Below, in pieces: positions 7,063-20,334 of a DNA stretch of 20,334 nt (positions are counted from its first letter, which is position 1; every line of letters begins with the position of its first letter). The notes under the pieces were generated by a model. The model did no database searches. It was not told where the DNA came from and was given only the letters and a program-made list of their open reading frames with translations. This stretch comes from Candidatus Latescibacterota bacterium (GTDB lineage: Bacteria > Latescibacterota > UBA2968 > UBA8231): NCBI GenBank assembly GCA_003529325.1, contig DPVW01000028.1:2562-22895 (forward strand). The letters run 5' to 3'. Both the position numbers and the translations under genes were made by a program.

Positions 7063-8388
7063 ATGACCAACATCCTCTATATCCTCGCCGATGATCTGGG
7101 CTGGGGCGACATCAGTCTGCATGGTGCCCCGATCCGAACACCGAACATCGACCGCCTCGCCACCGAGGGCATGGAACTGACCCAACACTACGTCTGCCCC
7201 ATGTGTACACCGACACGGGCATCGCTACTCACCGGTCGTTATCCGGGCCGTTTCGGTGCGCACGCGACAGTTCCCTCCAATGCGCCGGTGCTGCCAGATG
7301 GTTATGCGACCTTGGCGACAACACTGCGCGACGCCGGCTACGACACCGGTCTGTTCGGCAAGTGGCACCTGGGGTCGAGCCCGCAATTCGGGCCCAACCA
7401 GTACGGCTTCAATACCTCCTATGGCAGCCTCGCCGGTGGTGTCGATCCGTATAACCACTTCTACAAACGCGGCGAACACTGCGTCACCTGGCATCGCAAT
7501 GGCGAATTAATCGAGGAGCAGGGACACGTAACGGATCTCGTCGTCCACGAAGCGACACAGTGGCTGGAGTCTCGTCAGCAGCCCTGGTTCGCCTACGTGC
7601 CCTTTACAGCGGTCCACGTACCGGTAAAACCCACCAGCGAATGGCTCGCCCGCTATTTCCACGAGCACTTCGACGAGGACCCTGCCAAGGACCTGTCTTA
7701 CAAGAAATACGCCGCCTACACGAGTCACATGGATTGGGCCATCGGTCTGCTGCTGGAGTCACTTGAACGGACCGGTCAACGCGATGATACGATCGTCATC
7801 TTTGCCTCTGACAATGGCGGTCTCGAGGACTGTCCGCTTGCGGGCAGCGACAAGTATCCGGGGTGGCAGCAGGAGTATCCCCGCCTCGGCAGCAACAAAC
7901 CGTATCGAGGCGTGAAAGCGCAGCTATACGAAGGGGGTGTGCGCACGCCGATGGTCGTCAGTTGGCGTGGGCAGATCGAGGCGGGTGTGGTCCTCGATGA
8001 CCCACTCCAGATCGTCGACTGGATGCCGACACTCTGCAGCCTTGCGGGCGCAACGCCGCAACAGGATCCACTCTGGGACGGGCTTGATATCAGTAGCCAG
8101 CTCCTCGGCACAGCGACCGACATTTCTCCGAGAAGCTGTTTTTGGAACTTCCGCGGCGGCCGCCATCTGGCTGCCCGCGTCGGCGACTGGAAGCTCATTC
8201 GCCGCGAACCGGACACGGGAGGGCCCGAACAGGAGCTCTTCCACATCGGCCGGGATCCATACGAGACCGAGGAAGTCAGCGGCGATCACGCCGATGTCGT
8301 CACCGAACTGCAGAGCTTCATCGACGACCAACGCCAACTCGACGACAGTGCCAAACGCGTCGACGTCGATTCTCCCCTCATGCCATGA
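7063..8388 (+). CDS. Sulfatase (alkaline-phosphatase superfamily, Cys type)
   Basis: A 441-aa type I sulfatase. Metal ligands are seen in LADDLGWGD (Asp10, Asp11) and SDNGG (Asp250, Asn251). The maturation motif CTPTRASLLTGRYP carries Cys48, which must be oxidised to formylglycine by a separate maturase not present in this window. GKWHLG and NKPYRGVKAQLYEGG are further family signatures. It removes sulfate esters, probably from the sugar handled by the upstream lyase. The start MTNILYI leaves no room for a signal peptide, unlike most secreted bacterial sulfatases, so an intracellular role is likely. The ATG lies 4 nt after the heparinase stop, and its own TGA overlaps the ATG of the MFS remnant (ATGA). 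The gene looks intact. Confidence 0.92.
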   Translation: MTNILYILADDLGWGDISLHGAPIRTPNIDRLATEGMELTQHYVCPMCTPTRASLLTGRYPGRFGAHATVPSNAPVLPDGYATLATTLRDAGYDTGLFGKWHLGSSPQFGPNQYGFNTSYGSLAGGVDPYNHFYKRGEHCVTWHRNGELIEEQGHVTDLVVHEATQWLESRQQPWFAYVPFTAVHVPVKPTSEWLARYFHEHFDEDPAKDLSYKKYAAYTSHMDWAIGLLLESLERTGQRDDTIVIFASDNGGLEDCPLAGSDKYPGWQQEYPRLGSNKPYRGVKAQLYEGGVRTPMVVSWRGQIEAGVVLDDPLQIVDWMPTLCSLAGATPQQDPLWDGLDISSQLLGTATDISPRSCFWNFRGGRHLAARVGDWKLIRREPDTGGPEQELFHIGRDPYETEEVSGDHADVVTELQSFIDDQRQLDDSAKRVDVDSPLMP

Positions 8389-9134
8389 AGAGTCGACCAG
8401 CCCGTGGCGGCCTCCGCAGCCTGCCAGCCACGGTCTGGGGGTTGGGTTTTGTCAGCCTCTTCATGGACATCTCCTCCGAGATGATCCACAGTCTGTTGCC
8501 GGTATTTCTGGTAACGACCCTGCACGCCAGTGCCACGACCCTTGGCCTCATCGAAGGACTCGCTTTCAGTGGACCGCTGCTGGCGGTACTGATCATGACG
8601 GCTTCGGGTGGCGATATCCGTCTCGTGTTCTGGCTGGCCGTGCCGGCGGCGTTCCTCGCCGTGGCGATCCTCGGTGTCGTCGTGCACGAACCGGAGCGCG
8701 TCACAGCCGTCAGCAAAACCGCCCCTGCACTGGAACCTTGTGCGACAGTTGGGTCGACCCTTCTGGGGTGTCGTCATCGTCGGCCTCGTGTTCACCCTGG
8801 CGCGCAGTAGCAGCGAGGCCTCTCTGCTACTGCGCGGTACCACCGTCGGTCTCGAACTCCGCTGGATCCCGATGCTCATCGTCATCATGAATGTCGTCTA
8901 TGCCCTCACCTCGTATCCGGCAGGGCGACTGTCGGATCGCATCGGTCGTTATGGCCTGCTGGCACTGATCGTAGCCGACGTGTTGCTGGCATTGGCCGAT
9001 GGTCTTGTCTATCTGGGCGCAGGTGTCGCCTTGTGGGGACTGCACATGGGTTCGGTGCAGCCGCCGTATTCTGGACCGGTGCCGGTCTGGCAGCCACCGC
9101 CGCCGTGGGTTTTACCGCGTTGCGCCCACGATGA
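8385..9134 (+). pseudogene. MFS transporter remnant with internal deletions and frameshifts
   Basis: Three pieces of one MFS protein are visible. The first, in the frame of the ATG at 8385, begins MKSRPARGG, runs through LGFVSLFMDISSEMIHSLLP and TTLGLIEG, then jumps near 8550-8575 to SGPLLAVLIM and DIRLVFWLAV; in the family about 90-100 residues (several helices) lie between. Near 8700-8735 the frame shifts by one to WGVVIVGLVFTLAR, MNVVYALTSYPAGRLSDRIGR and GLHMGSVQ. Near 9057-9062 the frame returns, to AAVFWTGAGLAATAAVGF and a natural-looking C-terminus with TGA at 9132-9134; about 70 residues are missing here. The translated product would be non-functional. It was presumably the uptake or efflux carrier of the operon. 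The start overlaps the sulfatase stop as ATGA. Confidence 0.85.
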
Positions 9135-9373
9135 CCGAGCGTCATTTCCGCTTCTTCCAGTGGAATGATCTGCATGTGCGTGATCGCCACGTGGCTGGAC
9201 GTAGCGGAGGTTATCCTGGGTGCAACGAAAAGGTGGCATGGCTTGCCGTTGCCGCCCGTGGCGAAGTCGCCGGGATCGAAGCCCCGGACTTCATCATCTC
9301 CGCGGGTGACCTCATTTGTGGCGGGATCGACGATTCGTGCCAGCCTGGCGTGAGGATGTTTCTATCCCGGTGA
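9131..9373 (+). pseudogene. Truncated metallophosphoesterase (calcineurin-like)
   Basis: The ATG at 9131 overlaps the stop of the MFS remnant (ATGA), continuing the operon. The 80-aa reading frame begins MTERHFRFFQWNDLHVRD, with the first metal-binding motif in the DLHVRD segment, and reaches DFIISAGDLICGG, the second metallophosphoesterase motif (GD). The similarity then stops: the remaining GNHE, His and GH motifs are absent and the frame ends at 9371-9373. Full-length members usually exceed 250 aa. A short possible C-terminal piece (VDYDAWVRCPE) lies in another frame near 9390-9425. I read this as a gene that lost most of its middle. The product is probably inactive; the substrate is unknown. 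Confidence 0.7.
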
Positions 9374-9395
9374 GACCAGGGTGACATTGTGGATT

Positions 9396-9631
9396 ACGAC
9401 GCCTGGGTTCGGTGCCCGGAGCGAGAGACCCGCTCCTGCTCAACCAATTCCGCCGCCCTGATTCCCAGGAGGCGACCTGCGACGCAACCGATCGAGCCAG
9501 TCGACCCGGGACAACTCACGTTCTACTGAGCGAAGAACGAAATCACTCAGACTGCATCCTTCGGCCGCCGCCCGCTGACGAATGCGATCATGCAGCGTCT
9601 CAGATACATTCTTGACCTGGAGACTGCTCAT
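9396..9631 (-). pseudogene. Ribbon-helix-helix antitoxin (FitA/VapB-like), frameshifted, toxin missing
   Basis: From the ATG at 9631, with a GAGGGA ribosome site 10 nt upstream, the frame reads MSSLQVKNVSETLHDRIRQR and AAAEGCSLSDFVLRSVEREL. This is the typical DNA-binding ribbon-helix-helix start of antitoxins that pair with PIN-domain ribonucleases. After RLRRRSP (about 9475) the frame runs to a stop at 9440, but the usual antitoxin tail continues in another frame as LGIRAAELVEQERVSRSGHR to TAA at 9396-9398. So a small frameshift splits the gene near 9465-9475. No PIN-domain toxin follows downstream, where the metallophosphoesterase remnant lies instead. The truncated 63-aa product could still bind DNA. 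Confidence 0.72.
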
Positions 9632-9716
9632 ATCATGCTGTTCCCTCGGATTGTGTAGCCCTGTAGAAGGAAGATAGCATGCCAGGCGCACTGCAACATT
9701 GACACTTGCCTTCCAC

Positions 9717-9745
9717 TTGACTTCGATATTCGCTTCTCTTCAATT
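9717..9745 (+). promoter_or_regulatory. Possible sigma70-type promoter for frdABCD
   Basis: A TTGACT box at 9717-9722 is followed after 17 nt by TCAATT (9740-9745), a poor -10 match. A second good -35-like box, TTGACA, lies at 9699-9704 without a good -10 at standard spacing. The position just before the inverted repeat and about 80 nt before frdA fits a promoter, but the evidence is weak. Confidence 0.25.
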
Positions 9746-9746
9746 A

Positions 9747-9776
9747 GGGGTTCAGTCCGATGTTGGACTGAACCCC
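9747..9776. repeat. Perfect inverted repeat (12-bp arms, 6-nt loop) upstream of frdA
   Basis: Arms GGGGTTCAGTCC (9747-9758) and GGACTGAACCCC (9765-9776) are exact reverse complements separated by GATGTT. No run of T follows on either strand, so a classical intrinsic terminator is unlikely. It lies 50 nt before frdA, in otherwise AT-richer DNA. It could be an operator for a dimeric regulator or a stem in the frd 5' leader. Confidence 0.8.
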
Positions 9777-9826
9777 ATTACTCATAGCAATCATGTGAAG
9801 CACCTAGCTGAAGGCCGGCTCTGTTC

Positions 9827-11569
9827 ATGGCTCAAGAAGAAACATCTGAGTACGACGTCCTCATCGTCGGTGGTGGCGGCGCGGGTCTGCGGGCGGCGAT
9901 CGCGGCGTATGAATCCGACCCCACATTGAAGATTGCCGTGGTGTCGAAGGTGTACCCCATGCGGAGCCATACGGTCTCCGCCGAGGGTGGCGCCGCAGCG
10001 GTCATCAAGCCCGACGACAGTCTGGAGGACCACTGCTATGACACGGTCTCCGGTGCGGACTGGATGTGTGATCAGGACGCCGTCGAGTCCTTCGTCAACG
10101 AAGCCCCCAATGAACTGCTGCAGATGGAGCACTGGGGTTGTCCGTGGAGTCGTGAAGAGGATGGCTCGGTGGCGGTGCGCCCCTTTGGTGGTATGAAGAT
10201 CAAACGCACGTGGTATGCCTCGGACAAAACCGGCTTCCACATGCTGCATACGCTGTTTCAGACGAGCCTCAAATACGATCCCATCAAACGTTACGACGAG
10301 TGGTTTGTGACCAAACTTCTCGTCGAGGATGGTCGCTGTCAGGGTGTGGTCGCCATCGAACTCGCCACGGGGCGGGTCGAGTCGATCCTGGCCAGGTCCG
10401 TCATCGTCAGTACCGGTGGTTGTGGCAAGATCTTCCCATTCACGACCAATGCCAATATCAAAAATGGCGACGGCATGTCCCTCGCCTATCGGGCGGGTGT
10501 CCCCCTCAAGGACATGGAGTTCGTCCAGTATCATCCCACTGGTCTGCCCTTCACGGGAATCCTCATTACGGAGGCTTCCAGAGCCGAGGGTGGCCACCTG
10601 CTGAACAAGGATGGTTATCGATATCTGCAGGATTACGACCTCGGCAAACCGGAGCCTGAGCCGGTGCTGCGGTCGATGGAACTGGGTCCGCGAGATCGTC
10701 TATCCCAGGCGTTCGTCAAGGAGCAGGAGAAGGGCGGCACCATGGTGGGCGAATACGGCCACTACGTGCATCTCGACATCCGCCACCTGGGTAAAAAGAA
10801 GATCGAGGCCCGCATCCCCTTTGTCCGCGAACTCTGTCTGAAATACGAGAATATCGATCCCGTGAAGGAGATGATACCCGTGCGGCCCGTCGTGCACTAC
10901 ATGATGGGTGGCATCAGCACCGACATCGATGCGGCAACCCCACTCCCCGGTCTGTACTCCGCGGGAGAGGCCGCTTGCGTCAGCATCAACGGTGCCAACC
11001 GTCTCGGTTCCAACTCCCTCACCGAGATCCTTGTCTTTGGCGCTCGTGCCGGGAAAAATGCCGCCACCTTCGCGCGCGAGCAGGGCAAGACCTCGTCAGG
11101 CGTGCACGCACAGATAAGGGACGAGCAACAACGCCTCGGTCAGTTGTTGAACGGTGGTGGCACCGAATCGATCGCCGGTCTACGCAAAGAGATGCAGGAT
11201 ACCATGGAGGAGGGGGCGGGGATCTACCGCACCCATTCATCTCTGGCCAAGTCAAGCGAGAAGATCCAACAATTACAGGAGCGCATCGGCAATGTCGCTG
11301 TCGGTGACTCGAGTCTCACCTTCAACACCGAACTGCCGGCTGCCATCGAGCTCACCTACATGCTCGACGGGGCGGAGGCAATCATACAATCGGCTCTCAA
11401 CCGCAAGGAATCTCGCGGTTCACATCAGAGATCCGACCACCCGGACAGGGACGACGAAAATTTCCTCAGTCACAGTCTGGCGTACCGAGAGCAGGGCGGG
11501 CCCCCGCGTATCGAATATCTGCCCGTAACCATCACGAAGTGGCCACCTGGCGAACGCGTTTACGGGTAG
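9827..11569 (+). CDS. frdA: Fumarate reductase flavoprotein subunit
   Basis: Catalytic subunit that interconverts fumarate and succinate at the cytoplasmic face of the membrane. The 580-aa protein has the FAD dinucleotide motif [17 protein letters not shown] near residues 7-23 and the covalent-FAD histidine in [10 protein letters not shown] (His48). Substrate and active-site segments are [27 protein letters not shown], and [16 protein letters not shown] (conserved His); [17 protein letters not shown] is also present. Blocks such as [13 protein letters not shown] and [17 protein letters not shown] are closest, from memory, to E. coli FrdA rather than to SdhA. Length is near the 602 aa of E. 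coli FrdA. The ribosome site is weak (GAAGG, 12 nt upstream). It is followed after 26 nt by frdB, and the set frdABCD is complete. Confidence 0.93.
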
Positions 11570-11595
11570 AACAAGGGTTAGCAGCAGGAGAGTCA

Positions 11596-12333
11596 ATGCC
11601 GAATATCACCCTCGAAGTACAGCGGTATCTGCCTGAATACGGCGAGGAGCCCATGTTTCAGGAGTACGAGGTCCCCCTCCGGGGGGACTGGGTGGTGCTG
11701 GATGCCCTCAACCACATCAAGGATCATATCGACGGCACTCTGTCCTACCGATGGTCCTGTCGCATGGGGGTCTGTGGCAGCTGTGGCATGATGATCAATG
11801 GCACGCCGGTACTTTCCTGCGCCGCCTTCCTCACCAGTTACGCCCCGGGACCGATCCGAATTGAGCCGATGGCCCACTTCCCGGTGGTGCGCGATCTGGT
11901 GGTTGACGTCACCGACTTCGTCGACAAACTCAAAGCTGTGAAACCGTGGGTGATTCGCGAAACGGAGAAACCCCTCGCCGAAGGAGAATTCCGCCAGACA
12001 CCGGAGGAACTGGACGACTTCAAGCAGTTCAGCATGTGTATCAACTGCATGCTCTGTTATTCGGCCTGTCCGGTATATGGATTGGAAAAGGAGTTCACGG
12101 GTCCCGCCGCCCTCGCCCTGGCACAGCGCTACAACAAGGACAATCGCGACGAGGGCAACGACGAACGCATGCAGCACCTGTCGAATGACGAGGGCATCTG
12201 GGCCTGCACGATGGTCGGTGAATGCTCCGAAGTCTGTCCGAAGCACGTGGATCCCGCCGGAGCGATCCAGCAATACAAGCTGGCAGGCGCTGCCGATTGG
12301 TGGAAGTCGCTGATCACACGGAAGGGTACGTGA
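11596..12333 (+). CDS. frdB: Fumarate reductase iron-sulfur subunit
   Basis: Carries electrons between the quinol site and FrdA. The 245-aa protein has all cluster ligands: [2Fe-2S] in [13 protein letters not shown] and PVLSC (Cys55, 60, 63, 75), [4Fe-4S] in [15 protein letters not shown] (Cys148, 151, 154 with Cys158 next), and the [3Fe-4S]-type group in [17 protein letters not shown] (Cys204, 210, 214). The [17 protein letters not shown] ending matches FrdB more than SdhB. I chose the ATG at 11596 because a CAGGAG ribosome site lies 5-6 nt upstream and the product then starts like known FrdB; an in-frame ATG at 11539 would overlap frdA. Its TGA shares one base with the ATG of frdC, so translation is coupled. 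Confidence 0.94.
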
Positions 12334-12737
12334 TGTCTTATACGCTGCATCATCCGAAGTGGCATCGGGACAGCAAACCGATCTTCTGGTGGATTCTGCG
12401 CTGGGCGTATATCCGGTTCATCTTCCGCGAGCTGACGAGTGTCGCCATCGCCTATTTCGCCGTTCTGCTGGTTCTCATCTATCGCGCCGTGCAGTCGGGG
12501 CCAGAAGCCTACGCGGCTCTTATGGGCAGTTTGGCACATCCGGTGATGATCACCATCAGCCTCTTCGCCCTCGGCGCCGTGCTCTACCACAGCATCACCT
12601 GGTTCAATCTGTCGCCGAAGGCGATGGTGGTTCGGCTGGGGCGATTCCGGGTGCCGGATCTGATGATCGCCGGTGGCAACTATGCCGCCTGGTTCGTTAT
12701 CTCAGGCATCATCGCCTGGGCCTATGTCACAGGATGA
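12333..12737 (+). CDS. frdC: Fumarate reductase membrane anchor subunit C
   Basis: A 134-aa membrane anchor with three hydrophobic helices (about residues 34-52, 65-88 and 110-132). It resembles E. coli FrdC (131 aa) in key places: FRELTSV places Glu33 at the position of the glutamate (E29 in E. coli) linked to menaquinol oxidation, and LYHSITWFNLSPKAM matches the LLHTKTWFELAPKAA block that carries the histidine near the quinone site. It anchors FrdAB and helps form the quinol site. The ATG overlaps the frdB stop by one base. There is no separate cytochrome b subunit, so the enzyme is of the two-anchor, heme-free type, by analogy with E. coli. Confidence 0.9.
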   Translation: MSYTLHHPKWHRDSKPIFWWILRWAYIRFIFRELTSVAIAYFAVLLVLIYRAVQSGPEAYAALMGSLAHPVMITISLFALGAVLYHSITWFNLSPKAMVVRLGRFRVPDLMIAGGNYAAWFVISGIIAWAYVTG

Positions 12738-12744
12738 GGACCAC

Positions 12745-13101
12745 GTGAGCACATCCATAAAAAGCAACGATCCCTTCTGGTGGACTCTATTTGGCGCGGG
12801 CGGCGCACTGTCGGCCATGCTCGTTCCCATGCTGCTCTTCCTCACGGGTGTGGCGACACCACTGGGTTGGGTCGAGGGACCGAGTTTCGACTCCGTCGCA
12901 ACCGTCCTGCTGCATCCCATCACGCGGCTCGTCGCCTTCGCCCTGATCAGTCTTTCATTGTTCCACTGGGCGCATCGATTCCGCTTCACCCTGTATGACG
13001 GTCTACAACTCAAGCACCTCTACCAGGTTATCGCCGTCATCTGCTACGGTAGCGCGATTTTTGGGAGTCTCATTGCGGCGTACGTGCTGTGGCCGATGTA
13101 G
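12745..13101 (+). CDS. frdD: Fumarate reductase membrane anchor subunit D
   Basis: A 118-aa membrane anchor with three hydrophobic helices. The N-terminal segment DPFWWTLFGAGGALSAMLVP aligns by eye with the [20 protein letters not shown] region of E. coli FrdD (119 aa), and LSLFHWAHRFRFTLYDGLQL matches its second-helix His-rich segment. I favour the GTG at 12745 because an AGGATGAGGA ribosome site lies 5 nt upstream and the length then fits; an ATG at 12724 would overlap frdC by 14 nt and add seven residues. Its stop lies 7 bp from the end of the converging epimerase gene, so no terminator fits between them. Confidence 0.87.
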   Translation: MSTSIKSNDPFWWTLFGAGGALSAMLVPMLLFLTGVATPLGWVEGPSFDSVATVLLHPITRLVAFALISLSLFHWAHRFRFTLYDGLQLKHLYQVIAVICYGSAIFGSLIAAYVLWPM

Positions 13102-13108
13102 CGGCCCG

Positions 13109-13942
13109 TCAGGGCAGATGCTGGCGCACGAAATCTCGTGATGCGGGCACACGCTCTTCCTCGAGGCTGTGCAGAATTACCGAGCCGTTGAAACCGACAC
13201 GATCCAGGCACGCCAGGTAGTACTCATAGTCGAGCACTCCTGTGCCCGCTGCCTGATGCCCGGCGTCACCATCCTTCTCCAGATCCTTGGCGTGTGCCAT
13301 CCGGATGTCGTCGCCAAGCAATTGAAAAGCTTCGTCGAGCACCTGTCTCATGCGGGCAAGTTGCCCCGCCTGGAACAGGTTGGCCCCGTCGATGACGACC
13401 TGCAAATGCGGTGATGCCACTTCGTCGAGCAACCGCCGCGCCTTCGACGCGGTGTTGACGACATTGTTCACCTCCGGCTCGAAGACCAGCGTCACGTCAG
13501 CCTCTGCAGCGATCTGGGTCGCCGCCGCCATGGCGCGCACCGCATCCGACCAGGCCTCCGGACTGTCGTTGTCAGGATGGGCGCGCCACAGGTAGTCGGC
13601 GTCCCGTGTGCCTGTGCACATCGTGATCAGCTCAGTACCCAGCGACCCGCATGCATGAGCCAGTACGCGCAAACGCGCCAGCCCTGCCGGCCCCTCTGTG
13701 GGGTGGAGGACATTCCAGGTTCCTGAGACGGCTGCCAGTTCGATGCCGCGCTCCGCCAGTGCTGACCGGACCTGCGTGCAAAGAGCCTCGGGGAGGTCTG
13801 CTGGCATCGACTCTCCACCGAGTGTTTCCAGATTCAGTTGGATCGAGGCGAGTTCGTTGGCGACGACGGCGTCGAGATTGGCCTCGATCGTGTGTCGCTC
13901 GAATACCTTGTTGAAGATTCCCAGCTTCATTGAATTTGCCAT
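13109..13942 (-). CDS. Sugar phosphate isomerase/epimerase-like TIM barrel (xylose isomerase-like)
   Basis: A 277-aa protein of the AP-endonuclease-2/xylose isomerase-like TIM-barrel family. Metal-ligand-type positions are visible at the strand ends: VFEPEVNN (Glu), VVIDGANLFQ (Asp), MAHAKDL (His) and ILHSLEEE (Glu). Members isomerise or epimerise keto-sugars or act as hydroxypyruvate, inosose or tagatose enzymes; the substrate cannot be assigned here. I chose the ATG at 13942 because a GAGGAGG ribosome site lies 12 nt upstream; the next in-frame ATG (13930) is also possible. No signal peptide. It converges on frdD and is divergent from the outer-membrane gene. The gene looks intact and may serve the same carbohydrate metabolism as the left-hand operon (inference). 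Confidence 0.85.
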   Translation of the reverse strand: MANSMKLGIFNKVFERHTIEANLDAVVANELASIQLNLETLGGESMPADLPEALCTQVRSALAERGIELAAVSGTWNVLHPTEGPAGLARLRVLAHACGSLGTELITMCTGTRDADYLWRAHPDNDSPEAWSDAVRAMAAATQIAAEADVTLVFEPEVNNVVNTASKARRLLDEVASPHLQVVIDGANLFQAGQLARMRQVLDEAFQLLGDDIRMAHAKDLEKDGDAGHQAAGTGVLDYEYYLACLDRVGFNGSVILHSLEEERVPASRDFVRQHLP

Positions 13943-14084
13943 GGTCGAATCGAGCCTCCTCGACAAAGATCACCTGCGCCACATCCTCGGCGTCATCCGG
14001 GTCCCGGACACGGGAGACTGCTGTTCTTCTGTCATCTTTCCATGCCTGTTCTGTCCCGTAGTCGCCGTCGGAAGTTGGCACTAT

Positions 14085-14101
14085 TTTGGCGCGCCGCCAA
14101 A
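14085..14101. repeat. Short inverted repeat between divergent genes
   Basis: Arms TTTGGCG (14085-14091) and CGCCAAA (14095-14101) flank a 3-nt spacer. It lies between the divergently read epimerase gene (start 13942) and the beta-barrel gene (start 14145), 43 nt before the latter. A regulator site is possible; no T-run supports a terminator. The rest of the 202-nt gap shows nothing else I can support. Confidence 0.4.
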
Positions 14102-14144
14102 TCTCATTCCTGCATAGGCCATCCTGAGTCGTTAGTATTGCCGC

Positions 14145-14969
14145 ATGAGGACTTTCCTGGCACTGATATTGTTGGCTCTCATCGGTTATCCGGGCCGCGT
14201 CGAAGCAGGCGCCTGGGCCCAGCCGCAAGGAGAGCGCTACCTCAAATTTTCCATCATTTCCTACGATGCCGACAAACACTTCGACGGCGATGGCGATAAA
14301 CAAGCCCTCGGAACGATGGATGACTCCTTCCATGCCGAACAGGGGTTTCTCTACGCCGAATACGGTGCGCTGAATCGATTGACCGTCATCGGTCAGACGA
14401 GTTGGGGTACGTTGGAGTCCGACAGCAGTCTGCTGCAGCGGACGACGAGTGGTTTGGGTGACATCGAGTTGGGGGCCAAGTATCAGTTGACGGATGGTCC
14501 CATCGTGCTGGCGCCATTCATTGGCCTGAAATTGCCCTTCGCCTACGACAGCGATGACGATCCCGCGCTGGGCACGGGGGATGCCGATCTGGAATTCAGG
14601 CTCCTGGCGTCGAGATCACTATACCCCGTGCCGGCTTACATCGGCGCCGAGTTCGGTTATCGTCTTCGCGGCGGCCAATTCTCCAATCAACTACCCTATG
14701 CCGTGGAAGTCGGCGCCAGCCCACACGCCCGGCTCTTCGCCAAACTCTACCTGTCGGGTATCAACACCTTGCTCAGCGATGGTAGCTTTTCCGAGGCGAT
14801 GGACTCCATGTCGACGCAGGTCTCCGAAGGAAACTTCACCAAGTGGGGATTTGCTGTCGCCGGGAACGTGACGGGACCTCTATGGGTTGATCTGTTGTAC
14901 GAGTCGATCTTCACCGGGAAGAATACCGGCGCCGGCAACTCCGTGGGCATCGGGCTCTCTTGGCACTAG
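14145..14969 (+). CDS. Probable outer-membrane beta-barrel protein with signal peptide
   Basis: A 274-aa protein that begins with a Sec signal peptide (Arg2, hydrophobic LALILLALIG, likely cleavage after VEA at residue 21). The mature part has alternating short amphipathic strands separated by polar turns: LNRLTVIGQTSWGTL, GLGDIELGAKYQL, IVLAPFIGLKLPF, DADLEFRLLASRSL, PAYIGAEFGYRL and KWGFAVAGNVTGPLWVDLLY. The pattern resembles the MetA-pathway phenol-degradation/transporter-like outer-membrane family (PF13557-like), though this is judged by eye. The C-terminus ends in GIGLSWH. It implies a diderm envelope. No strong ribosome site precedes the ATG. Its TAG overlaps the TAG of the converging heparinase-like pseudogene within the palindrome CTAG at 14966-14969. 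Confidence 0.78.
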   Translation: MRTFLALILLALIGYPGRVEAGAWAQPQGERYLKFSIISYDADKHFDGDGDKQALGTMDDSFHAEQGFLYAEYGALNRLTVIGQTSWGTLESDSSLLQRTTSGLGDIELGAKYQLTDGPIVLAPFIGLKLPFAYDSDDDPALGTGDADLEFRLLASRSLYPVPAYIGAEFGYRLRGGQFSNQLPYAVEVGASPHARLFAKLYLSGINTLLSDGSFSEAMDSMSTQVSEGNFTKWGFAVAGNVTGPLWVDLLYESIFTGKNTGAGNSVGIGLSWH

Positions 14970-16715
14970 CGCCACTCCACCGCCACATTCGCCCCAAGTA
15001 TCTCACACCCATCAGGACCCACCCGGCAACGGGCGACGCCGAGGATTTCGAAGGCTTCCCCCACGTCGACGTCGTAACGCAACCCCCCGTCGTATTGCTG
15101 GTCATCGACGAAGCCGCGCACCAGCGTCGTATCCCCCAGATCCAGCCGTTGCAGTCCTGACGCAACCGCCGTAACCCCTTCGATCCAATAGCAGGTATCA
15201 CGCGGCGAAGCACCGAGCACGCGTAGTTCAGCTCCCTGCAAGCACCCATCCGTCGGCAAATCCGCCTCGACATCCAGCCAGGTCGGGCCGGCCTCCTGTC
15301 GGGCAAAGTCGCAGATCACGCCTTCGTATTTTGCCCGCGCCAGGCACAACTCCCCTTGCGGCAGACGCACGCTGGTGCCACCGACGACGAGGATCTGGGT
15401 CGAACCATCCGTCTCGACGCCGATCCAGACGAAGCGTGCCGCTACGGCAATGCCGTCGCCGAGTTCGACATGCTCCGTGTGATCATCCGTGCTGAGCACC
15501 GTATCGACCCGTCCCATCGCCGTGTGCACACGCACCGCCGCCGCACTGTTCGACGTCAACTGCAGCCGTTGCACCGACGCCAATTCGCAGCGGTCGCCAC
15601 TGAATGGCTCGACGACGCCGACGAACAGGCTGCGCAGATCCTGCCCTTGATTGCGCTGTAGCAGATAGCGGAACTGCGTCGGATTGCCCGGTTTGTTATT
15701 CGGCGGTTCACCGAAGGCAAGACTCACGTCAGCCGCCGGGGACAGACCGTGATAACGAAGATGCTCGGCGTCGTCACCGGTGCGTGCGCCCCAGGTGTCG
15801 GCGAGCTCCCAGTCCACCCACCAACCCGGCGAGGGGTTGCTCTGTTGCTCGACGTTGCGCAGATAACTGAAGCCACTACCACGGTAACCGCCATCCGGTT
15901 TTCCATCGTAGTGCGCCCCAAAGGGAATGTCGCTGCCAGCGTAAGTGCCCTCGCCTTGCGACTGCAGGTCCAGTCCGTGGGTTGTCACTTTGCCACCGGC
16001 GACGCGGAACACATCCACCATGTAGGACTCGGTGTCATCGATGTCGATGATGGCCAGAGTGCGTCGATAGTCGCTGGTCTCGGAATAGACTTCGTCACAA
16101 CCGACCTCGATGACGCCGATGCCATCGCTGCACCGAGGAAGTCGACGAGATCGTCATCGCCATCGACGTTATCCAGCAGCACATCGGCGACACGTGACAA
16201 GCCTTCGGCAAGAGCGGTCTCCCAGATGCAGCCCTGTAGTCGGCCCTCGCCGGAACCACCATGCGAGTTGTACAACTCCATATCCGAATACGGCCGCAGG
16301 TCCATGGCGGGATAGACGTCGGCGATGCGATCGAGCAGTACCAGTCCTTTGTGGGCGTACTGCCGATCACCGGTATACAGATACGCCTGTGACAGGCGCT
16401 GAAATCGTTCTTCGGCCAGACTTCGTCACAGGACGGGCACTGAATCTTGAATGGTTTGTCGATGTCGAGAATCCACGGATAGTTGCCGTGTTCCTCGTAG
16501 ACCTTGCGACCGCAGGAGGGACAACCCAGTTTGGGATTTACATGGATCCCCCGCGGAATCTGTTGCCCCGTCACCAGGCGCCACAACGCATCGTCACTGC
16601 GCTCGACGAAGGGCTGGGCGGCGGCGACGGCTCTGTCGGCGATTTCGCCTGCCCATGGGTAGCGCCGGACATTGACCCGCGCTTGTTCGACTTCTTCTGT
16701 ACTGAGTAGGTTCAC
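14966..16715 (-). pseudogene. Second heparinase II/III-like gene, catalytic core deleted
   Basis: Three pieces in different frames form one broken gene. Piece A starts at a GTG at 16715 behind a GGGGGAGG ribosome site and includes LGCPSCGRKVYEEHGNYPW and CPSCDEVWPKNDF, the same Cys4 motif as in the intact paralogue at 3792. At about 16405 it jumps to piece B, QRLSQAYLYTGDRQYAHKGL through MDLRPYSDMELYNSHGGSG to LLDNVDGDDDLVDFLGA. Near 16105-16140 the frame changes again to piece C, IGVIEVGCDEVYSETSDYRR, which stays open as the beta-rich C-terminal domain to the stop at 14966. The central part with the HxH catalytic segment is gone, as is the stretch after PKNDF. Two deletions plus frame changes make it non-functional, though the C-terminal 380 or so residues remain an open frame. 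Confidence 0.82.
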
Positions 16716-16741
16716 GCCTCCCCCTCACTCCCTTGAAATCA

Positions 16742-16768
16742 CCTGCGGGTCTATATTGCGCCCGCAGG
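16742..16768. repeat. Inverted repeat with AT-rich spacer upstream of the P-loop gene
   Basis: Arms CCTGCGGG (16742-16749) and CCCGCAGG (16761-16768) are exact reverse complements around an 11-nt spacer containing TATATT. It sits between the start of the heparinase-like pseudogene (16715, minus) and the P-loop gene (16804, plus). An operator overlapping a promoter is possible. A TTGAAA at 16733 is only 13 nt from TATATT, too close for a standard promoter. Confidence 0.5.
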
Positions 16769-16803
16769 AGCCTAAAATCGATCAACCGAAGCGGGAGGAC
16801 AAT

Positions 16804-17421
16804 ATGCGGGTCATTGTGGTGGGTTGTGAATACAGCGGCGTAAGCACACTGATCAAGGGACTCGACGACTGGGCCGAACAGCGGGGATTCCACCACCACC
16901 TCGACGACCACTTCACCATCCCCGACGCCTATCATCTGAGCGTCGAAGAGCAGCAGGCCATGCTCGACATGCTGCCGGCCATCAAGGAACGATTCCAGCG
17001 CTTCCAACTCGTCTACCACGTGCGACTGCTACACCGTTACCGCCACATCCTGCTCGGCGGCTTCCACATCGAAGAAACGATCTACGGTCCACGTTATTAC
17101 TACCCGGGCAAAGCTCAACCGGTCCGTGAGTACGAACCCGAGATGCCTGACAACACCATCCTCGTGCATCTGCATGCGGCACAGGATATAATCCGCCAAC
17201 GCATGGAGGTCGCACCACACCCCCATCAGCTCGTGCCGTCTGACGACGTAGCTGAGGTCCTGGATGCCTATGCTGTGGAAGTGCGCCAGAGTTGGATCCA
17301 TCGCAAGATCGAAATCGACACGTCGGCGCTGACACCGGAGACGTTGCTGGCGTCATTTCTGCAGAAATCGATTCCCCATCTGGATGCGGAGGATGCCGGG
17401 ATCAGGACGTTGATTGGGTGA
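16804..17421 (+). CDS. Small P-loop-like protein of unknown function (nucleotide kinase-like)
   Basis: A 205-aa protein starting MRVIVVGCEYSGVSTLIKGL. This looks like a Walker A strand-loop-helix (GxxxxGxST) as in nucleotide kinases, but the lysine is replaced by Val13. Further blocks are FHHHLDDHFTIPD, LLHRYRHILLGGFHIEETIYG, RYYYPGK and NTILVHLHAAQDIIRQRM, the last like the lid/adenine region of thymidylate- or cytidylate-kinase-like folds. I do not recognise a characterised function. A GGGAGGA ribosome site lies 4 nt before the ATG. The gene appears intact, although its last 20 bp overlap the converging FliM remnant. It is divergent from the broken heparinase-like gene. Confidence 0.75.
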   Translation: MRVIVVGCEYSGVSTLIKGLDDWAEQRGFHHHLDDHFTIPDAYHLSVEEQQAMLDMLPAIKERFQRFQLVYHVRLLHRYRHILLGGFHIEETIYGPRYYYPGKAQPVREYEPEMPDNTILVHLHAAQDIIRQRMEVAPHPHQLVPSDDVAEVLDAYAVEVRQSWIHRKIEIDTSALTPETLLASFLQKSIPHLDAEDAGIRTLIG

Positions 17422-18135
17422 AGGTGTAACTCAGGCTCAGCGCCACATCCTCCAGGCCTGCCGACGAAATCGTCAGCCGCACATGGGTGACGATTTCAGT
17501 GGGGGCGACGATTGCCGAATCAGCCGTCATCAAGGTCACAGGATTCGTGTCCTACCTCAACATCCGAGATCGTCTGGCACGACGGATTCCCACGCCCCCG
17601 CCAGCTGCTCCATGACCTGCCCTATGGGGGTGCGCAGTCTGCCCATCTCATCCGGCGTCAAACGACGCCACTCGGGATGATGGTTCAACAGGGCGAAGGC
17701 GAGAGGCATGGGAAGGTCGAGGATCACCCGACAGGGTAATGGCGACATGGCGAAGCTGTAGGTGCAGGATGGATTTGTCAGAGCACCGATAAATTCAGCG
17801 CGGGTGCACCGAGCCACCGACAACAACTCGACCTCCACAGCCCTTTCGAGGCAGGTGGAAAGAATGGCTCCGGTCTGTGTCGCCAACTCGGTATGAATGC
17901 TCTCCAGATCCTCCAACTCAACCTGCACACCAACCGCCGAGACTGTGTCGCCGGCAGCCTCGACGACGCAGATCAGATTCCGCTGGCCGAATTCGACGGC
18001 GGGACGGGGTTTGAGGAACCAGTGCAGATTCGGGTGATTTCCATACGGATCGATGAGGACCCGTGCACCGGAGGGCATGACCCATAGGAACGCAGAGCGC
18101 CCGAGGTAGTAGAGGGTTACCTGTTCATCCATCAT
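17402..18135 (-). pseudogene. Chimeric remnant: metallo-beta-lactamase N-terminus joined to FliM middle domain
   Basis: From the ATG at 18135, with GAGGTG 5 nt upstream, an open frame of 192 aa runs to 17557. Residues 1-45 (LYYLGRSAFLWVMPSGARVL, IDPYGNHPNLHWFLKP) are the start of a metallo-beta-lactamase-fold hydrolase, but the HxHxDH motif that should follow is missing. From about residue 70 the protein is FliM-like: ESIHTELATQTGAILSTCLE, RAVEVELLSVARCTRAEFIG, ALTNPSCTYSFAMSPLPC and WRRLTPDEMGRLR, the flagellar motor-switch middle domain, lacking the usual GGxG loop. After the stop, FliM similarity continues in other frames (SDVEVGHES, then AIVAPTEIVTHVRLTISSAG) to TGA at 17402. The C-terminal SpoA domain is absent. 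Two unrelated genes seem to have been fused by deletion. A real domain fusion is less likely. Confidence 0.72.
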
Positions 18136-18195
18136 ATTTACACCTCGGTGGATATTCCTACCTTGTGTGTCATTCCCCTAATGGATGGACGCCAG

Positions 18196-18426
18196 ATGGA
18201 CATTGCCAATCTCTTCTCGCAGACCGCCGATGGTGCCACTCAAGCCGTGGTCGACTACTTCCTGAATGAGATCCCTGACCAGGCGCGGGGTACCAACAAG
18301 CTGGGTGTCACCATCAACCTCGCCGCGGACATCGACGCGACCGATGCCAATGGCAAGACGACACTGGACCATGCGGCTGTCCTGGAGCGCATACCCGCGA
18401 GCCTGCGACGACACGGAGCGAAGTAG
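18196..18426 (+). pseudogene. Shortened ankyrin-repeat protein
   Basis: A 76-aa reading frame from the ATG at 18196 (in-frame alternatives are ATG 18181 and GTG 18148; no strong ribosome site marks any of them). It begins MDIANLFSQTADGATQAVVD, like the first helix pair of a small ankyrin protein, continues with PDQARGTNKLGVT, and ends with ADIDATDANGKTTLDHAAV and SLRRHGAK. The last block is the typical final ankyrin repeat (GAD-D-DANGKT-LDHA, LLRxHGAK). Between LGVT and ADIDATD at least one repeat appears to be missing without loss of frame, and the last repeat is also slightly short. It could still be translated; I class it as a remnant because its repeats are incomplete. It is divergent from the MBL/FliM chimera. 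Confidence 0.55.
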
Positions 18427-18457
18427 GGCCCCGAGTTCCGCTTTCGGCGGTCCAGCG

Positions 18458-18891
18458 TCAGGGCTCCAGCAGTTGCGTGAACAGTTCCGGCTCCACGGAT
18501 CGCAGGCGCGCCAAGACTTGCCCGAGGAATACGGCCACCTTCGTGCCGACGAGAAAAATCGGATCCGTCACCTCCCACACCATCGCCGGTGTTACGCCAT
18601 CGATCTCAACCCCGTCGATGACGCGGATACCGGCGGGGAAAATATCCGCCGTGCGGGGCGCAGAGCGCACCTCAACCGACAGCAGATCTCTTCTTGGACC
18701 TCACGATGGAGTGCCTGCACGGGCGTCTCACCAGCCTCGCTCTTACCCCCTACGCAACCCAGACCGATCTGCGTGGATTCACCTGGGCAGTGCTGCCAGC
18801 CGCCAGGTTTTCTTACTTCGAGTACGAGACGTCACTTGAAAAAGAGCAGACAGCCGGCGCCACTGAACTGGCCGGGATCAATGCTTGTCAT
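18458..18891 (-). pseudogene. Nudix hydrolase with in-frame stop and frameshift
   Basis: An ATG at 18891 with GGGAG 8 nt upstream starts MTSIDPGQFSGAGCLLFFK, then meets TGA at 18832-18834. The same frame continues RLVLEVRKPGGWQ, IGLGCVGG and the Nudix box, which spans GGKSEAGE, TPVQALH and REVQEEIC (pattern Gx5Ex7REUxEE, codons 49-70). Just after the box, near 18683-18690, the frame shifts by one. The C-terminal part continues as DLLSVEVRSAPRTADIFPAG, MVWEVTDPIFLVG and ARLRSVEPELFTQLLEP to the stop at 18458. Nudix enzymes hydrolyse nucleoside diphosphates linked to other groups; here the final conserved glycine of the box is lost at the shift. TGA serves as the normal stop of several neighbours, so recoding is unlikely. 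An antisense frame over this gene is not coding. Confidence 0.75.
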
Positions 18892-18929
18892 ATGTACAAC
18901 TCCCATCCTCTAAATAGGACAACGACCCT

Positions 18930-19805
18930 ATGCCGACAGACCACACCCCCTTAAGCCTGCTCATCATCGGTGCTCATCCGGCGGATATCTTCGACCAGTC
19001 CGGTGGCACCATGGCGCATCACGCCAGACGTGGTGACCGTGTCGCCTGTTGTGTGCTTACCCATGGCGCCCGTGTGCACGATGCCGTGATCAGTGATCAG
19101 ATGTTCCATCAGGAGCGCGTACCCGAGGCTGAGCAGTTGCAAGAGTTGATGCAACAACGCGCTGACGTCAAGGCGCAGGAGGCGCGCCGGGCATGCGCAC
19201 TACTTGGATGCGAAGAGCTGTACTTCATGGGCCTTGATGATGCGGTCCTGCTCGTTACCGAAGAGGCGGTCAAACAGGTCGCCACGTTGGTGCGGCAAGT
19301 CCGACCGAATGTGGTCATCACCCATTTCCCCCGGGAAGGATCGACGACGACGAATCCGCACGCAATCGCTGGACAGATCGCCCTGTATGGGCTGCAACTG
19401 GCCGGTAGCGTCGATCCCGGGGACACGAACCCACCCCACAAGGTGAGTCAGACCTTCTTCTTTGGCACCGGGGGTGCACCCCTGCCGCGGGACGTGTGGG
19501 GTGCCGAGGGTGGCTATTACAACGATGTCTTCATCGATATCAGCGACGTCGTCGAGGAGAAACTGGCCGCCCTGGACACCCTCGTCAGCCAGGGATACGG
19601 TGGCGCCTACGCCCGCAAACGGATCGAGACCAGTGACGGTGCCTTCGGCGGTGCCGTACGTTGCGCCTATGCGGAGGGCTTTATCAAGATGAATGCCGAG
19701 TGCCATTACCACCTACCCGTTACCGAGCACGCCCTGGGGTTGGCGGCCATGAGTGATCACGAGGTGATCGCCCGGGCCTCGATCCGACACGACGATGAGG
19801 GCTAG
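18930..19805 (+). CDS. PIG-L (LmbE-like) family deacetylase
   Basis: A 291-aa protein of the zinc-dependent N-acetylglucosaminyl-deacetylase superfamily. The first motif, LLIIGAHPADIFDQSGGTMA, has His16 and Asp19 as expected metal ligands but Ala18 where most members have the catalytic aspartate (HPDDE). The GGTMAHHARRGDRV helix and DDAVLLVTEEAV follow; the second motif, VITHFPREGSTTTNPHAIAG, carries the candidate third ligand. Members remove acetyl groups from amino sugars or conjugates such as mycothiol precursors; no substrate can be assigned. An AGGA ribosome site lies 10 nt before the ATG. It looks intact, ends 4 bp from the converging amidohydrolase remnant, and overlaps no other real gene. 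Confidence 0.87.
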   Translation: MPTDHTPLSLLIIGAHPADIFDQSGGTMAHHARRGDRVACCVLTHGARVHDAVISDQMFHQERVPEAEQLQELMQQRADVKAQEARRACALLGCEELYFMGLDDAVLLVTEEAVKQVATLVRQVRPNVVITHFPREGSTTTNPHAIAGQIALYGLQLAGSVDPGDTNPPHKVSQTFFFGTGGAPLPRDVWGAEGGYYNDVFIDISDVVEEKLAALDTLVSQGYGGAYARKRIETSDGAFGGAVRCAYAEGFIKMNAECHYHLPVTEHALGLAAMSDHEVIARASIRHDDEG

Positions 19806-19809
19806 CGGT

Positions 19810-20094
19810 TTACAGCTTAAGCAGCCTGCAGGCGTTGCCACCCATGACGAGCCGCTTCTCTCGGTCACCGATGGCGGCGGTCAGGATCTTTCCCAGTTGC
19901 GTCCGGGGATCCATCAGCGGCTGGTCGGAGCCAAACAACACACGGTCGGCTCCGGCACCCTCTACCAGTTGCTCAATGACCCCTGGCGAACGGTAAGTCG
20001 AACAGGTTTCGAGGTAGAAATTCGGCAGCTCTCGCGCCATGTCGATGGCCTGCGTGCGATGGCTGCTGAGCAGACGCCGCGTCAGTCGGCTAAG
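19810..20094 (-). pseudogene. C-terminal fragment of an amidohydrolase-2 family protein
   Basis: The frame is open from 20094 to the TAA at 19810, with an internal ATG at 20040. The sequence RTQAIDMARELPNFYLETCS, YRSPGVIEQLV, AGADRVLFGSDQPLMDPR and KRLVMGGNACRLL is the C-terminal third of a metal-dependent amidohydrolase (PF04909-like); GSD carries the conserved aspartate. An in-frame TGA at 20095-20097 precedes it, exactly where a divergent DUF1501 gene begins to be recognisable, so the N-terminal two thirds (metal-binding HxH and central His) are lost. A 76-aa product from 20040 could be made but would be inactive. The fragment overlaps the DUF1501 reading frame by about 36 bp. Confidence 0.75.
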
Positions 20095-20334
20095 TCAGTG
20101 ATCTATATCTTCCTCTCGGGCGGATTGGCACAGCACGAGAGTTTTGACATGAAGCCGGACGCACCTGAAGAAGTGCGCGGTGAGTTCAAACCGATTTCGA
20201 CGCGTACGCCAGGCGTGCAGGTCAGTGAATACCTGCCGATGCTGGCCCAGTGCAGCGACAAGTGGTCGCTGATCCGCAGCCTGACTCACTCCTGGAACGA
20301 ACACTCCCAGGGCCATCACATCATGTTGACCGGC
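20059..20334 (+). CDS. DUF1501 protein, 5' end rearranged, cut by the window edge
   Basis: The frame from the ATG at 20059 (MAAEQTPRQSAKSVIYIFLS) runs open to the end of the window. GGLAQHESFDMKPDAPEEVR, GEFKPISTRTPGVQVSEYLP, KWSLIRSLTHSWNEHSQGHH and IMLTG are clear DUF1501 (PF07394) signatures, a sulfatase-superfamily-related domain of unknown function that is often periplasmic. Family members normally carry 40 or more residues before this, including a Tat signal (RRxFL). Here none is seen, and the upstream bases instead encode the amidohydrolase fragment on the other strand. So the 5' end may have been removed by the same deletion. Whether the rest is intact lies outside the window. Confidence 0.75.
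   Translation, partial: MAAEQTPRQSAKSVIYIFLSGGLAQHESFDMKPDAPEEVRGEFKPISTRTPGVQVSEYLPMLAQCSDKWSLIRSLTHSWNEHSQGHHIMLTG

Follow-up and report, generated by a model that had tools for sequence, protein, structure and literature searches.

Why should apparently damaged genes lie side by side with intact ones in a single stretch of bacterial DNA? This question arises from a 20,334-nucleotide region (the window) of a Candidatus Latescibacterota genome, for which the original prediction proposed that at least eight genes had lost internal segments, either through recent deletion-biased genome reduction of the kind seen in host-associated bacteria or through a systematic assembly artefact that excises segments. 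Deletional bias and the loss of pseudogenes are well described in bacteria (PMC2916853, citing Mira et al. 2001 and Kuo and Ochman 2009), and the same source places short indels and premature stops among the commonest lesions of bacterial pseudogenes; our literature search found no paper, judged by title, on such decay in Latescibacter. The reading that we favour, to which we assign a probability of roughly three in four, is that accessory genes between maintained genes decay piecewise by deletion, with assembly errors on top.

The window represents bases 2562–22895 of contig C205 (24,176 bases) in a scaffolded metagenome-assembled genome (G000) of 502 contigs and 5,533,864 bases, with completeness 85.02 and contamination 5.18. 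Comparisons drew on the sister genomes G002 and G003, on G001, which like G003 belongs to the window’s genus, and on G004 and G005 from other genera. The left 8.4 kb of the window is occupied by long open frames with Pfam matches: a kinase, a glyoxalase-fold protein, an ADP-ribosylglycohydrolase, a sulfatase, a UxuA-like protein (match over positions 173–332 of 352) and a heparinase-type protein of 1088 aa, the match of which falls under the cut-off.

Further along, the genes described as intact between damaged neighbours are indeed so in two cases. The quinol:fumarate reductase operon frdABCD (9827..13101, plus strand; TIGR01176, 947.7 bits) consists of open frames, with FrdA, FrdB and FrdD above the NCBIfam cut-offs and the FrdC match below, while a PIG-L family deacetylase (18930..19805, plus strand; PF02585, 74.7 bits) has a relative, L021, at 88%. 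The third, the so-called ‘P-loop’ gene kept open beside debris (16804..17421, plus strand), has no stops over 205 aligned codons and DNA identities of 74% to G002 and 79% to G003, so its frame stands as described; its name, given in the original prediction, does not, as no Pfam or NCBIfam family matched. Both the PIG-L and ‘P-loop’ genes are open and can be aligned to G002 and G003. FrdB of the window is 84% identical to the proteins of G004 and G005 but only 66% identical to the match in G001, and this greater closeness to other genera than to the same genus suggests that the operon may have moved between lineages. The neighbourhood of PIG-L and an amidohydrolase (18930–20062 in the window) is met elsewhere: an amidohydrolase of that family lies within ~5 kb of PIG-L, in varying order and orientation, in loci with the titles Gemmatimonadaceae, Ardenticatenaceae and Chloroflexi (L022, L060, L068).

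The clearest damage lies in a heparinase II/III-family paralogue (14969..16715, minus strand). Its best full-length relative, judged among the best 120 of the 139 proteins that matched at E 0.001 from 7999 scored candidates, is P0001 (1009 aa, named Candidatus Latescibacteria bacterium), which is only 70% identical. A tblastn search with P0001 recovered residues 3–109, 182–270 and 597–1005 in three blocks (16709–16389, 16395–16129 and 16144–14969), each in a different frame, so that ~72 and ~326 residues are missing and both losses are out of frame. Besides this frame-breaking lesion, the locus shows a further feature expected of a pseudogene formed by deletion, namely that relatives retain longer, intact homologues: eight genomes from other genera, like P0001, carry strong matches as open frames (1006–1042 aa in the eight). 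Small lesions were not seen in the three blocks, which contain zero stops, and this is unusual for bacterial pseudogenes.

Could these junctions nevertheless have been created in assembly? A 206-aa database protein, P0124 (a cluster of 6 members, the window’s own protein among them; longest contig 13,149 bases), crosses both heparinase junctions; its departures from the window are the first residue, the start codon, and one internal residue. P0005, the cluster of which likewise counts the window’s own protein, reproduces the 351-aa C-terminal frame apart from 3 differences. By contrast with P0124, the JGI sequence P0125 (4 members, contig 1171), which matches 53% of the 206-aa frame at 96% identity, still contains the first segment missing from the window and departs from the family frame, by eye, after about residue 284; judged from these proteins, the locus is in at least two states among very close sequences. 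The original prediction of deletion damage to this gene is borne out by the comparison with P0001, and its junctions recur in P0124.

The same gene is broken differently in the sister genome G003, where the orthologue retains P0001 residues 1–71, 116–272, 359–681 and 888–1005, reflecting three deletions. None of these shares both ends with a deletion in the window, although the second starts near residue 271 in both genomes. In G002 the copy is open from residue 549, near its contig start, to 1008, and relative to it the third G003 deletion has removed 617 bases between flanks that are 93.3% and 89.6% identical; inspection of this one junction by eye revealed no long repeat shared by the joined ends. 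Shortened frames shared exactly with sister genomes had been named as evidence against gene damage; the junctions that P0121 (described below) and P0124 repeat are not shared by G002 and G003. The ratio of differences at codon position 2 to those at position 3 is 0.16–0.37 in the heparinase blocks (three of four comparisons being made against G003’s own broken copy), compared with 0.28 for the intact paralogue, 0.11 for PIG-L and 0.23 for the ‘P-loop’ gene. This third-position bias is near that of the intact paralogue and is most simply understood if the bulk of the divergence arose while the gene was under selection and the breakage is recent.

A second junction lies in a 192-aa frame (17557..18135, minus strand), in which a metallo-beta-lactamase-fold start (PF13483, 17.4 bits, under the cut-off) is fused to a FliM-like piece (PF02154, 34.7 bits, FliM positions 13–136 of 192). 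One alternative is that some short frames of this kind are working genes. The fused frame is open and recurs as P0121 with 2 differences, on a 24,002-base contig and in a cluster of 3 members that includes the window’s own protein; yet it runs from the beginning of one fold into an internal stretch of FliM, it is matched at E 0.001 by only 3 protein clusters from 319 candidates and most FliM-like matches elsewhere occupy longer frames. By our own count, 27 of 43 other FliM-like matches across 40 genomes sit in open frames of 330–400 aa, and one such long frame (359 aa) occurs on contig C363 of the window’s own genome. A functional short gene therefore seems to us highly improbable. The predicted damage to this gene is upheld for the fusion, given P0121 and the long FliM frames elsewhere, and not for a gap inside FliM, which we rejected as a lesion since P0123 has equal spacing by eye.

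As the respective junctions recur on other contigs in P0121, with 2 amino-acid changes inside the frame, and in P0124, with 1, the metallo-beta-lactamase/FliM and heparinase junctions are probably real. The independence of these proteins, and of P0005, from the window’s assembly is uncertain; the P0121 contig is close in length to that of the window (24,176 bases), so this protein may share a pipeline with the window or derive from a related sample. The fused frame lies within debris between the ‘P-loop’ and PIG-L genes (17424..18955) that amounts to 1532 bp in the window, against 108 bp in G002 and 123 bp in G003. We think that a gain in the window’s lineage would be simpler than loss in two sisters.

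Damage to an MFS transporter was also confirmed. The remnant (8385..9063, plus strand; PF07690, E 2.8e-6, below the cut-off) aligns in a tblastn search with the 388-aa protein L240 in two blocks, residues 2–62 at 8412–8591 (62%) and residues 191–317 at 8695–9063 (31%), with a switch of frame between them and no match for the middle of L240 nor for its last ~70 residues; the C-terminal part has a relative in two of 39 other genomes. At the corresponding place in G003 (L220 11911–12204), 85 bp rather than the window’s 1383 bp separate the heparinase-type gene from the MFS start, the sulfatase is absent and, in our own reading, the MFS frame also ends early.

Other proposed lesions fared less well. 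For the supposedly damaged metallophosphoesterase, a 79-aa frame (9134..9373, plus strand) could represent its start, as it matches PF00149 over positions 2–47 of 191; this match is weak (E 0.02, under the cut-off) and the piece had zero matches in the other 39 genomes. The RHH antitoxin thought to be damaged is an 83-aa frame (9440..9691, minus strand) that passes the Pfam cut-off for a FitA-like protein (PF22513, 28.1 bits against a cut-off of 27), which lends the claim no support. The 92-aa frame called ankyrin had no Pfam match, nor had the frame at 18694–18954 called Nudix, while a minus-strand frame at 18426–18692 contains stops.

The right end of the window provides a different kind of junction. 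Scaffold misjoins at assembler overlaps are known in short-read metagenome assemblies, and here the C-terminal part of an amidohydrolase (19810..20062, minus strand; PF04909, 45.8 bits) abuts a 272-base piece (20063..20334, plus strand) that we take, from the original prediction and our own reading, to be DUF1501-like. An exact 24-nt repeat occupies 20039–20062 and recurs directly after a 27-N gap beyond the last base of the window; on one side the amidohydrolase extends as far as the first copy, and on the other it resumes at the second, its N-terminal part lying beyond the gap from L099 18747 on. In the relative L022, the corresponding residues are continuous by eye. Because the repeat flanks the 272 bp and 27 Ns and the amidohydrolase resumes past its second copy, we read the junction as a scaffold error that misplaced the DUF1501-like piece: the break predicted at about 20080 is present in the assembly and is not gene damage.

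Such errors extend beyond the window. In the G000 contigs sampled, exact repeats of 15–77 nt flank nine of the 20 internal N-runs; five of the nine are 22–24 nt long, as at the window’s right end, and one run of 347 Ns corresponds to 18 bp in G002. At L109 and L115, an N-run separates direct duplications that match exactly over at least 50 and 77 bases, which may be two strain variants assembled one after the other. The G000 assembly is error-prone, and claims that rest on the assembly alone are therefore weakened. It might then be supposed that every junction is an artefact, with contig ends misjoined and segments excised by the scaffolder or gap closer, and the repeat-flanked N-runs, the 347-N run and the split amidohydrolase all lend this idea some weight. 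It does not readily explain why the heparinase and metallo-beta-lactamase/FliM junctions appear again, with small differences, in other contigs, nor why G003, the sampled contigs of which are free of internal N-runs, has like deletions, the one junction inspected there showing no long repeat. Moreover, within 3 kb on the window’s contig, no repeat of at least 18 nt was found beyond the pair at 20039–20062, the only junction with an assembler-scale repeat, and among the genes listed as damaged a scaffold misjoin accounts for the amidohydrolase/DUF1501 case only. We also weighed two shorter repeats, one of 13 nt at 16087/16418 and one of 14 nt at 16106/17959, as possible assembly joins, but set them aside as short, the first pair lying by eye in native coding context. 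We regard a wholly artefactual origin as unlikely: the proposed systematic artefact is not supported as a general account, although the assembly does contain scaffold errors, that near 20080 among them.

Genome-wide, deletion-driven reduction in a recently host-restricted bacterium was the other proposal, and the presence of several broken genes in a single window, together with the broken heparinase of the same-genus G003, would be in keeping with it. So would the coding segments in a 176-kb sample of G000 (window contig included, N-runs removed): these average 737 nt, compared with 929–1102 nt in six comparison sets, 31% are under 300 nt (6–23% in those sets), 23% have no stop at their end (6–18%) and frame switches number 62 per 100 kb (43–53), which could mean either more erosion or more assembly error across the genome. 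The coding fraction of that sample is 0.920, within the 0.908–0.958 of the same comparison sets. Initial coding fractions of 0.755 for G000 and 0.806 for G003 had pointed to genome-wide erosion, a conclusion that we rejected, as wholly masked contigs and N-runs had been counted as non-coding; once the contigs were split at N-runs, the switching penalty softened and the sample slightly enlarged, the fractions came to 0.920 and 0.924.

A tblastn survey with 982 reference proteins, a small sample that is blind to short fragments, found an internal deletion in only two of 53 regions in G000, one being the window’s own heparinase, compared with 2/34 in G003 (where one case, L151, has overlapping pieces and looks spurious), 0/21 in G002, 1/46 in G001 and 0/44 in G005. 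In G000, the three longest frames for class I tRNA synthetases run open for 940–1112 aa. Sulfatase (PF00884) matches number 82, against 34–53 in four relatives, and by our own count the 48 among the matches listed are all near full length. DNA alignment of three more contigs, one of them covered over its first 20 kb, gave blocks of 6.4, 3.3, 2.1 and 1.9 kb with no large gaps, and in places G000 has more DNA than its sisters, as where its 7.3 kb compare with 1.9 kb in both G002 and G003. Because such long blocks accompany spots with extra DNA, the pattern, as read from these alignments, is one of gene flux rather than uniform loss. Neither many pseudogenes nor low coding density, as expected of host-restricted reduction, was found in the 53 regions and 176 kb sampled from this genome of 5.5 Mb at 85% completeness; the shorter coding segments point the other way. 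The proposed host-type reduction is accordingly not supported, and we consider it very unlikely.

What remains of the predicted window-wide erosion is that a few accessory genes appear truly broken, whereas one break is a scaffold error and several lesions lack support. In the piecewise decay that we favour, accessory genes lying between maintained genes would be dead or dying and would be removed via internal deletions of ~130 to 1000 bp, which might arise without long repeats through replication slippage or end joining. The debris at 17424–18955 would have entered the window’s lineage and decayed afterwards, and one of the listed junctions, with many N-runs, would represent assembly errors overlying real decay. 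This account resembles bacterial pseudogenes under deletional bias, in which unmaintained genes shed pieces while their neighbours stay; it differs in that short indels and stops are described there (PMC2916853), whereas the lesions traced in the window are deletions of that larger size. A more speculative idea, which we hold to be quite unlikely, is that the genus has an unusual mutation spectrum, in which dead genes of at least two species would decay almost exclusively through several separate mid-sized deletions lacking long repeats, with few small indels or stops, perhaps due to a particular end-joining repair system.

The window looks like ordinary gene turnover rather than part of a shrinking genome, its apparent erosion being, on our reading, a mixture of accessory-gene decay and scaffolding error. 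This suggests a quick test for metagenome-assembled genomes, in which repeats flanking N-runs, together with a search for the same junction in other contigs, may separate decay from misassembly.
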